NCBI GenBank assembly: GCA_005808665.1
Contig: SYLG01000082.1
Span: forward strand, 1-33,104
Direction of reading: 5' to 3'
DNA length: 33,104 nt
Source: Planctomycetia bacterium
GTDB taxonomy: Bacteria > Planctomycetota > Planctomycetia > Gemmatales > Gemmataceae
A model generated the notes under the pieces. That model was not told where the DNA came from. It saw only the letters and a program-made list of their open reading frames with translations, and searched no databases. The translations under genes and the position numbers were made by a program. Below, one piece after another: positions 21,217 to 24,313 of the stretch (positions within the stretch are counted from its first letter, which is position 1; each line of letters opens with the position of its first letter).

Positions 21217-22026
21217 ATGGTCAGGTTTGTGGGGACCAGCTTGGTTATGGACATCAATTTGGTAGTGGATGCCGGGCTTCGCCGGGCACTTGTGGAGCCA
21301 TTTGGCAGCCAGTTACATACCGCAAAAAATGGGGAACCTGGGCTATTTCCCCAATCGGCGTTGGGCAAGCGTGCCGCCGCAAAAGCCCTGAAGGAGGGGT
21401 ATTTGGCGCCTGCTCTGGAGGTTGGGACCGAGGCGGCCAGAATTACCCAAAAAGGGCGGGAGCACATCGCCCAAAACTTGTGTCCCAAAAACATTCTTGA
21501 TGATTTTGTTCGCATTCTCGAACATCGCCAGGGTGTGGCAAGGCAATTGTTATTGGGGGTTCAAACACAAATTGACCAATTGGAAAGGATGCAATTGGGT
21601 TTGAGCGAACTTCGTTTGGCGATTTTGATACAGGACGGCCAATCGGCATCGGCGGTAAAAGCGATTTCTTTTGAACAAAGTGCTCTTGGCAAGGTCCGCC
21701 AGATTCTTGCCGACCATGAAGTCGCATTTGAAACCGATTACCTCCTTTACATACTTTATGACCAACTGAAGGAGCAAATTGGTGTTTTCCCAATTGGAGT
21801 ATTTCACGATTTGCTTAGGGTTTGGCATGGGGAGGGATTTGTGGCACTCCATCCATGGACAGGGCCACTCTATCAATTGCCAAGACCCGAGGTTGCCTTG
21901 CTAATTGGTCATGAAATTGCCTGCTATGTGCGTTGGTCGGCCCATGGGGACTCCCGACCGTTGGCTGTTAAGTATGCAAAATCAAAATCTGCAGATCCGC
22001 AAAGGGTGGGGTCCCTGGTGGGGTGA
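21217..22026 (+). CDS. Uncharacterised protein with winged-helix-like segments, partner of the AAA ATPase
   Basis: A 269-residue protein I cannot name. An early segment (LGKRAAAKALKEGYL through ARITQKGREHI, about residues 49-88) has the look of a winged-helix wing, with xLTxxGRxxL-type spacing. A helical, possibly coiled-coil part follows (about 90-135). A second compact domain near 150-240 ends with VALHPWTGPLYQLPRPE and ALLIGHEIACYVRW. No catalytic motif and no membrane helix were seen, so it is probably a cytoplasmic DNA-binding or adaptor protein. Its stop is 19 bases before the ATPase start, so the two are almost certainly co-translated and may form a complex. ATG at 21217 has no clear ribosome-binding site; ATG at 21247 would remove ten residues and is possible. 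Confidence 0.6.
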   Translation: MVRFVGTSLVMDINLVVDAGLRRALVEPFGSQLHTAKNGEPGLFPQSALGKRAAAKALKEGYLAPALEVGTEAARITQKGREHIAQNLCPKNILDDFVRILEHRQGVARQLLLGVQTQIDQLERMQLGLSELRLAILIQDGQSASAVKAISFEQSALGKVRQILADHEVAFETDYLLYILYDQLKEQIGVFPIGVFHDLLRVWHGEGFVALHPWTGPLYQLPRPEVALLIGHEIACYVRWSAHGDSRPLAVKYAKSKSADPQRVGSLVG

Positions 22027-22045
22027 GGATCAAGGGGAATTAGCA

Positions 22046-24313
22046 ATGATTATTAGCCTGAATCAAAGTGCCGCCGAAAAGATGCTCCAAACACTTCGGG
22101 TTGCGGGGAACCCGTTTCGCAATCACTTTGCCCGGAATCCCGATGATGAGACCTGTGCGAAATACCATGTTCCCGAGTTATATTCGAGGGAACGAAACAT
22201 CCTATTGGGAATTGTGGACCGCCACCGCTACGCTACCCGCCATCCTTCCGAGGTGGTTCCGATATTGGGAAACAAAGGAGCAGGCAAAACTCATCTCCTT
22301 CATTCGATCAAACATGGCAGGGAGGGAACATGGCAACTCCTCGTGACACCTGGCACTTTTCATCGCGACACCGATTTTCTGGAATACCTATTCTTTCAAT
22401 TGGTTGAAACGCTTTTGGGAGGGGCTCGCCAGGGAAACGCCAGACCCCTCGATTTTGTTGGCGAAAACCTGATCCGGCTCAAATTGATTGCCGCCCTTGG
22501 GGCAATGGGCCATAAAGAAAGGCAAAGCGTATTTCCCGGAGGCCCTTTCCTGGGTTGGCTCAAAATGTTTGGCTATTCCACCAGCCAATCCCGTGAGAGG
22601 ACAGAGTGGCTTTTGGAGCAACTTACAAGGTTGGGTAACCTCCCCTACAATCAGGGGGCTTTGCGGAAATTATGCGAACAAAGTGGATTAGGTGCCGATA
22701 CGGTTGTCCGTATTCTGGATAGTCATGCGGAACATACCGAGGGCAAGAGCCCTTCCGCCCTCATGCGTCGTGCCCTTGTTTGTGGCTTTGCAAAGGCGGT
22801 TTTGCAGGGCAACGAAAATGACCTGGCCGAATTTTTGACCTATGGCTTTGCCGAATTGAACATTCAAATCCGGCCCGGGAGGCAGGACTTGGTTTTGGCC
22901 CTCCTGAAGGTCCTTATGGAAATGTTTAGTGCCTTGTGTATCCCGGTGGTGGTTGCCTTTGACCAACTTGAAGACCTCCTTATGGCCCGCCGTAACGAGG
23001 ATACCCATCGAACAGCAGAAGCATTTTTTGCCGGGATCGTTCACGCAATGCATCAGATCGAAGGGATTACTTTCCTTATTTTTGCGGAAAGAGGCCTTTG
23101 GAATCGCTTCCTCCCGTCGATAGATGGTTACATCCAGGATCGGCTCAATCAGCCTCTTCATGTGCAAGGGCAGGGGACGGTGCATTCCCTGCGTCTTGAG
23201 GCCCCTCCGGTTGATTTGGTCAGGCGGATGGTGGAGGCCCGCCTAAGGGCAATTCACGCGAGCCTGATTGATGCTCGGGAACTATCCCCAATCTACCCCT
23301 ACACAACCGAACAGGTGAGTCGGATTGCCAGTACAGAACCAACCCTTCGCGATATGATTCAGCAGTTTCGCAGGCTATTTGATTTGACCGTGTATGGGTC
23401 GGAATGCTCCGAATCCAAGGAAACCACTCATAAAGTGGAGACCCTCCTTAGCCGAACTCTTGAGGAAGAATCGCACCAATCCCCAGAGGGACCAGAAATG
23501 GACCCTGACATGATAGAGTGTGAAATCCCTGGCATGAAAGGTTCGTTAAGCGAATCAAACAGTACCAAGGAGGAGGTCATGAATCCTGGGGTAGGCCCAA
23601 GGGAAGGATATTCTGATCCCGCTTCTCCGGGTCCATTGGTTCAATCTCAATTGGGATCGTATTTGGGGCTCATGGGAGGCGAAACTCTTCCTACGCCCGC
23701 CGACCTATGGGATCAGGAAGTCAGGGTAGCCCTCAGGAGGTTGGAGCCTGAAGGAGCGATCACCGGGGCCACCCGCGAATTACAGGCAGGATTGGGCCAT
23801 TTCCTGCGCCTGGCTATGGACCATGGCGTCAAGGTGGGACCATGGCGCATACAGCATGTCGTGGATGAATGGAACTTTGGGGAACACCCAACCTACGGAG
23901 TCCTGAGTATAGCCCATTGGGCCTGTCGGGGAGGCAATCCTTGGAGGGTTGGGATTGGACTATTTCTGGGGCGTGGGCAAGGAAAACTTAAGGATTTAAC
24001 CACCAAATTGAGTGCCTTTGACATTGAACCACCGGTTTTGGACCAACTCATTCTGCTTCGACCAGAAGATGATCCGACGCTTGCAGGGAAATCCAGACAA
24101 CTTTGGCAAGAGATGGAACAAAAGGGTCGACACGCCCGGTTGGAGTTGGTAGGGATTGAGGAGTTTTCGAAACTATTTGCCACGCCCCGGTTTGTTTCTG
24201 GGCTTTTCGAAAGCTTACCCGGTGGCCAAATCCTTTCTAATCAGGCTGACCTTATTCAGGACCGTTGCGAATCTCTTTTGAAGCAGCTTTGTATGCCGAT
24301 ACAGGGGGATTAA
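22046..24313 (+). CDS. AAA-type P-loop ATPase with an extra C-terminal domain
   Basis: A 755-residue protein. AAGGGGA at 22032-22038 supports the ATG at 22046 and rejects the longer frame that overlaps the previous gene. The Walker A loop GNKGAGKTH is at residues 75-83 and the Walker B strand IPVVVAFDQLED at 299-310. A sensor-like strand ITFLIFAERGLW lies near 341-352, and YIQDRL near 362 could give an arginine finger. This resembles Orc1/Cdc6- or STAND-like ATPases more than transporters. A polar, Ser/Glu-rich linker spans about 455-550. The C-terminal domain (about 555-730) has short beta-like strands, including WRVGIGLFLG and LDQLILLRPEDD, whose order recalls restriction-endonuclease-like folds, but no clear catalytic triad is visible. 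The function is unknown. Confidence 0.7.
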   Translation: MIISLNQSAAEKMLQTLRVAGNPFRNHFARNPDDETCAKYHVPELYSRERNILLGIVDRHRYATRHPSEVVPILGNKGAGKTHLLHSIKHGREGTWQLLVTPGTFHRDTDFLEYLFFQLVETLLGGARQGNARPLDFVGENLIRLKLIAALGAMGHKERQSVFPGGPFLGWLKMFGYSTSQSRERTEWLLEQLTRLGNLPYNQGALRKLCEQSGLGADTVVRILDSHAEHTEGKSPSALMRRALVCGFAKAVLQGNENDLAEFLTYGFAELNIQIRPGRQDLVLALLKVLMEMFSALCIPVVVAFDQLEDLLMARRNEDTHRTAEAFFAGIVHAMHQIEGITFLIFAERGLWNRFLPSIDGYIQDRLNQPLHVQGQGTVHSLRLEAPPVDLVRRMVEARLRAIHASLIDARELSPIYPYTTEQVSRIASTEPTLRDMIQQFRRLFDLTVYGSECSESKETTHKVETLLSRTLEEESHQSPEGPEMDPDMIECEIPGMKGSLSESNSTKEEVMNPGVGPREGYSDPASPGPLVQSQLGSYLGLMGGETLPTPADLWDQEVRVALRRLEPEGAITGATRELQAGLGHFLRLAMDHGVKVGPWRIQHVVDEWNFGEHPTYGVLSIAHWACRGGNPWRVGIGLFLGRGQGKLKDLTTKLSAFDIEPPVLDQLILLRPEDDPTLAGKSRQLWQEMEQKGRHARLELVGIEEFSKLFATPRFVSGLFESLPGGQILSNQADLIQDRCESLLKQLCMPIQGD

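Follow-up and report, generated by a model that had tools for sequence, protein, structure and literature searches.

Gene organization at the locus

The window, which is the whole 33,104-nucleotide stretch of DNA analysed here, comes from a Gemmataceae genome. Its closest relative with a name is the Gemmataceae MAG SIAL01000077, whose ATPase is 88% identical to the one described below. Two genes on the same strand, encoding a predicted winged-helix protein (referred to as the partner) and an ATPase, occupy positions 21217 to 24313, with the following features:

21217..22026, + strand: partner gene, 269 aa (ORF, 35-homologue alignment, AF2 model with pLDDT 87, winged-helix matches)
21253..21480, + strand: predicted N-terminal winged helix of the partner, MarR-like, residues 13-88 (AF2 and winged-helix matches)
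21484..21729, + strand: predicted helical/coiled-coil stretch of the partner, residues 90-171, variable in sequence (AF2)
21745..21936, + strand: predicted C-terminal winged helix of the partner, residues 177-240, its best-conserved part (AF2, alignment, matches)
22046..24313, + strand: ATPase gene, 755 aa (ORF, alignment, AF2, fold matches)
22268..22294, + strand: Walker A motif GNKGAGKTH, residues 75-83 (homologue alignment)
22940..22975, + strand: Walker B region IPVVVAFDQLED, residues 299-310 (homologue alignment)
23405..23692, + strand: fast-evolving linker, predicted to be disordered, about residues 454-549 (AF2, identity comparison)
23693..24310, + strand: C-terminal domain with a predicted PD-(D/E)XK-type strand order and no ExK, about residues 550-755 (AF2, Foldseek, alignment)

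The ORF calls bear out the spacing of 19 bases between the two reading frames that the original prediction had reported, with a GGGGAA stretch preceding the ATPase start. This start is the ATG at 22046, and the gene runs to a stop at 24313; a longer in-frame ORF of 802 residues beginning at 21905 was rejected as the ATPase gene because it overlaps the partner and finds no support among homologues. Judging by the homologue alignment, the native start of the partner is possibly the in-frame ATG at 21250. Both ORFs are real genes and are conserved among homologues. Neither product belongs to a curated family in Pfam, NCBIfam, PADLOC, PHROGs or PDB sequence searches, in which the top matches were to AAA_16, under the cut-off of that model, and to Sll1717, with 17.8 bits, and literature searches returned no description of the pair, in agreement with its having been called uncharacterised.

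Architecture of the ATPase

The Walker A motif and Walker B region, which had been described as intact, lie at the residues originally assigned to them, and 34 homologues preserve them almost without change; within Walker B, D306 and E309 are invariant and Q307 is nearly so. In the AF2 model (mean pLDDT 81.5), the fold of the AAA+ module is closest to those of Cdc6/ORC, TnsC and BrxC (VIA, Z 12-13.5), and this modelled fold identifies the protein as an ORC/Cdc6/TnsC/BrxC-type AAA+ ATPase. The VIA rows span only the AAA part and are thus silent on the C-terminal domain.

Between these two parts lies the polar linker recognised from the sequence, now predicted to be disordered with a pLDDT of 30-50. 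The C-terminal domain is well folded in the full-length AF2 model, where its elements follow the order alpha-beta-beta-beta-alpha-beta(-alpha-beta-alpha) of PD-(D/E)XK nucleases and the chain ends in helices. Foldseek placed EcoT38I second, with a probability of 0.99 but an E value of only 0.039, and its matches include phage restriction endonucleases and PD-(D/E)XK proteins. With a mean identity of 64%, the domain equals the AAA part (63%) in conservation and is hence under strong constraint, whereas the linker retains 20%. Alignment of 30 genomes revealed that the strand expected to bear the ExK motif, VGIGLFL in the window, holds no conserved acid, which makes an active nuclease unlikely; conserved residues are found elsewhere in the domain (E578, R601, K647, D650, K654, R672, D675-676, R698, and E700). 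The domain is thus probably a dead nuclease fold of the PD-(D/E)XK type, so that the endonuclease-like character first proposed for it holds for the fold, while the ATPase as an active endonuclease was rejected for the missing ExK motif.

Architecture of the partner

The AF2 model of the partner, built from an alignment of 35 sequences (mean pLDDT 87), comprises a winged helix (13-88), a long helical coiled coil (90-171), and a second winged helix (177-240), giving structural backing to the winged-helix character deduced earlier. The two ends match winged helices of the MarR type and the cullin-WHB/MCM type, together with MarR/PadR-type regulators, and the protein probably binds DNA. The HPWTGPLY (21850-21873) and GHE motifs, singled out at first only as conserved-looking, fall in the C-terminal winged helix and are strongly conserved in the homologue alignment.

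The resemblance to MarR/PadR-type regulators raises the alternative of a regulatory pair, in which a winged-helix regulator would act with a STAND-like signalling ATPase in neither chromosome maintenance nor defence. The FDQxE Walker B of the ATPase, which resembles that of nSTAND NTPases, would suit this role, as would the best NCBIfam hint, to the Sll1717 P-loop ATPase subfamily (NF047389, E 0.0014). However, the Sll1717 match reached 17.8 bits against a curated cut-off of 75 bits, the C-terminal nuclease fold suggests DNA handling, and no conserved target gene adjoins the pair, all of which render a regulatory pair improbable.

Distribution and inheritance

The order Gemmatales is taken here as the family of the window and its sister family, together 79 genomes, many of them MAGs. 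Searches with the window ATPase and its profile detected the ATPase in 75 of them, the four observed absences comparing with 5.7 expected from stated genome incompleteness, although two of the four genomes lacking it are 94% complete. No orthologue was present in about 180 genomes from other Planctomycetia families, eight of which gave weak partial matches to the AAA part alone. The conserved pairing that had been put forward as a check was found in planctomycete genomes: of 42 relatives with the ATPase, 39 have the partner immediately upstream in the same orientation, a recurrence that is not due to chance; the exceptions are two genes at contig edges and one gene fragment. Thus the partner stands beside nearly all homologues, and no confident match to a characterised family has displaced the pair from its uncharacterised status.

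The flanking genes are variable; the commonest is folC, which occurs in the vicinity at 12 of about 29 loci and is the immediate downstream neighbour at nine. No defence, mobile, FtsK or nuclease genes and no conserved target gene recur beside the pair in these loci, and screens of 72,556 plasmids and 50,697 phages yielded no homologue of the window ATPase. A mobile defence island, against which the proximity of folC had been cited, is accordingly rejected, and the two genes constitute a core gene pair across Gemmatales.

Distance comparisons over 28-30 genomes gave correlations of the ATPase with DnaN of r 0.66-0.67 (Mantel p 0.0005) and with LepA of 0.57, the two markers themselves correlating at 0.74; its divergence (0.39) is below that of DnaN (0.51) and above that of LepA (0.26). 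The pair is near-universal and largely vertical in Gemmatales. In an unrooted tree, the core clade forms one group with short branches and a support of 100/100, adjoining a patchy clade of paralogous two-gene loci and standing apart from the three-gene clade discussed below. The existence of this patchy clade means that the two-gene form alone implies no core role.

A paralogue of the partner of about 250 aa is also encoded alone, with no adjoining ATPase (the A5 family, e.g., L086:5725-6474, L091:2605-3402, and loci L239-L258). Strong matches to this solo adaptor were obtained in 30 of 44 Gemmatales genomes and none in the genus of the window itself, and in about 10 of 27 loci read its gene lies beside trpS in divergent orientation.

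ATPase and partner distances correlate at r 0.89, and at 0.84 once both markers are removed. On a shared set, the partial correlation with the ATPase is 0.72 for the solo adaptor versus 0.83 for the linked partner; since the solo adaptor comes close to the linked partner, the rate correlation lacks specificity, and as a sign of binding it is suggestive rather than proof.

Three-gene cassettes in other Planctomycetia

The weak class-wide matches lead to a three-gene operon in other Planctomycetia, encoding a protein with winged-helix features, an ATPase of about 660 aa, and a protein of similar size (about 660 aa) that combines a Cas4-like nuclease, an FtsK-alpha part, and an FtsK motor and scores strongly against SspH. 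At 13 cassette ATPase loci, the upstream partner is present in 12 and a full FtsK gene adjoins in eight, with a fragment in one more. Profile comparison of the window family with the cassette ATPase gave a match through the AAA part and C-terminal domain (99.6%, E 6e-25), the alignment ending before the last approximately 110 residues of the cassette ATPases; the corresponding comparison of the two partners was weak (E 0.0022, probability 13%). These cassettes are patchy in distribution and are the nearest wider relatives of the window pair. The Gemmatales genomes examined gave only FtsK motor matches and no Cas4-FtsK protein like that of the cassettes.

Several variations on this arrangement were seen. 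A cassette trio with readable nuclease and FtsK motifs resides on the cyanobacterial conjugative plasmid pPSE7367.01 (NC_019690.1, 187751-200716), neighboured by a DEAD/DEAH helicase, a SWIM protein, and an IS21 element. The cassette partners at three loci contain tandem wHTH-like module repeats of varying number. Many more ATPase subfamilies occur in Planctomycetia, as read at 14 loci; in several of them the gene upstream has a similar winged-helix motif at its end, and the third gene is Cas4-HerA-like in some (L189) and different in others (L190, L192).

Comparison with known systems

"HerA/FtsK capture" anti-invader systems have been described as mobile neighbourhoods combining an Orc/CDC6 ATPase, HerA/FtsK, and an active REase, in which an inactive REase is inserted before the C-terminal wHTH of the ATPase and of which a subset also encodes a fast-evolving protein of 2-4 wHTH domains (Rakesh, Aravind and Krishnan 2024, PMC10853773). 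In gene content, the three-gene cassettes fit this description. The window pair shares with capture systems an ORC/Cdc6-type AAA+ module (Z 12-13.5; cassette profile E 6e-25) and a multi-wHTH partner with two predicted winged helices; the tail that follows the AAA module, with its predicted PD-(D/E)XK-type strand order and no ExK, is a candidate counterpart of the inactive REase. In contrast, the window ATPase has no C-terminal wHTH, no HerA/FtsK gene recurs beside the pair, and no active REase is found in the ATPase tail or among recurrent neighbours; moreover, the pair is chromosomal, near-universal, and vertical in one order, whereas capture systems are mobile and patchy. The window pair is thus a relative that uses part of the capture toolkit and stands outside the capture class.

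The BREX protein BrxC (DUF499) likewise carries an ORC/Cdc6-clade AAA+ module, and its structures 9zdx and 9zll match the window ATPase with Z about 12. However, BrxC is a protein of 1200-1300 aa with a triad of wHTH, alpha+beta, and wHTH domains plus a coiled coil, encoded beside PglZ (PMC12839542), whereas the window ATPase has 755 aa and a nuclease-fold tail, with no BREX genes and no PADLOC match. ORC/Cdc6 initiators (1fnn, Z 13.5) and TnsC (7mcs, Z 12.7) share the AAA+ fold; unlike in the initiators, the AAA module of the window ATPase is not followed by a winged helix in the AF2 model, and the separate partner may supply the winged-helix role missing from it. As for SspFGH/DndFGH, the link is through the outgroup cassettes, whose FtsK-type third gene scores strongly against SspH, while no SspH/DndH-like gene adjoins the window pair and its ATPase matches no Ssp/Dnd model.

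Proposed function

The favoured reading, to which we assign a probability of about 0.6, is that the pair works as a single machine and represents the DNA-binding and ATPase half of a capture-type machinery, now vertically inherited and probably a housekeeping core factor of Gemmatales. The housekeeping role is suggested by its presence in almost every member of the order, and it is this conservation that favours such an output over fixed defence. Briefly, we infer that the double winged-helix protein would recognise a DNA site or structure and recruit the AAA+ protein into a complex, and that the latter would assemble as an oligomer on duplex DNA in an ATP-dependent manner, like ORC/Cdc6 and TnsC. 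The tethered dead nuclease domain would then serve as a clamp for DNA or a partner without cutting, and the output would be chromosomal, in the control of maintenance, organisation, replication or segregation, and more probably a housekeeping task than restriction.

The conservation of the pair speaks for a core role, yet the nearest outgroup is of a published anti-invader type. An alternative is a fixed innate anti-invader system, in which the pair would sense and capture foreign DNA and recruit a nuclease or translocase encoded elsewhere. Anti-invader systems repeatedly feature ORC/Cdc6 ATPases that carry inactive REase domains (PMC10853773), the wider relatives of the pair are capture-type cassettes, and its divergent paralogue clade is patchy, as defence genes are. 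However, the pair itself is near-universal, single-copy, and slow-evolving, it has no recurring defence neighbours, PADLOC match or active-nuclease motif, and Gemmatales genomes offered FtsK motor matches in place of the Cas4-FtsK protein of the cassettes. On balance, we consider fixed defence unlikely.

As an extension of the favoured housekeeping reading, it is tentatively proposed, at somewhat less than even odds, that domestication at the base of Gemmatales turned a capture-machine module into a chromosome factor that is essential or nearly so, built of an ORC-like AAA+ protein, a dead nuclease domain, and two alternative winged-helix adaptors, one linked and one solo. If true, this would be a clear case of defence-type machinery entering, or arising from, core chromosome biology throughout a bacterial order, parallel to the links among the ORC/Cdc6, TnsC, and BREX ATPases, and it would imply that a sub-module of AAA+, dead nuclease, and wHTH can persist without the FtsK motor. 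Gemmatales have unusual nucleoids and unusual cell division. The domesticated module would then be a component of their chromosome biology that is peculiar to this lineage, and the two genes a marker pair for the order and a testable candidate for its special chromosome handling.

A more specific alternative is that the pair makes up for the absence of a replication or segregation component, e.g., the helicase loader DciA or ScpB, the partner of SMC. Loading would be a fitting task for an ORC-like AAA+ protein that has a winged-helix partner, and the double winged-helix layout of the partner recalls ScpB/MukE. Yet ScpB is present in 44 of 44 and DciA in 42 of 44 Gemmatales genomes tested, so that neither has been replaced across the order; replacement is largely refuted for these two genes, and substitution in general is very improbable. 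Outside this set, ScpB (PF04079) was not found in four well-completed genomes of another family (f3); in most other genomes it is present twice.
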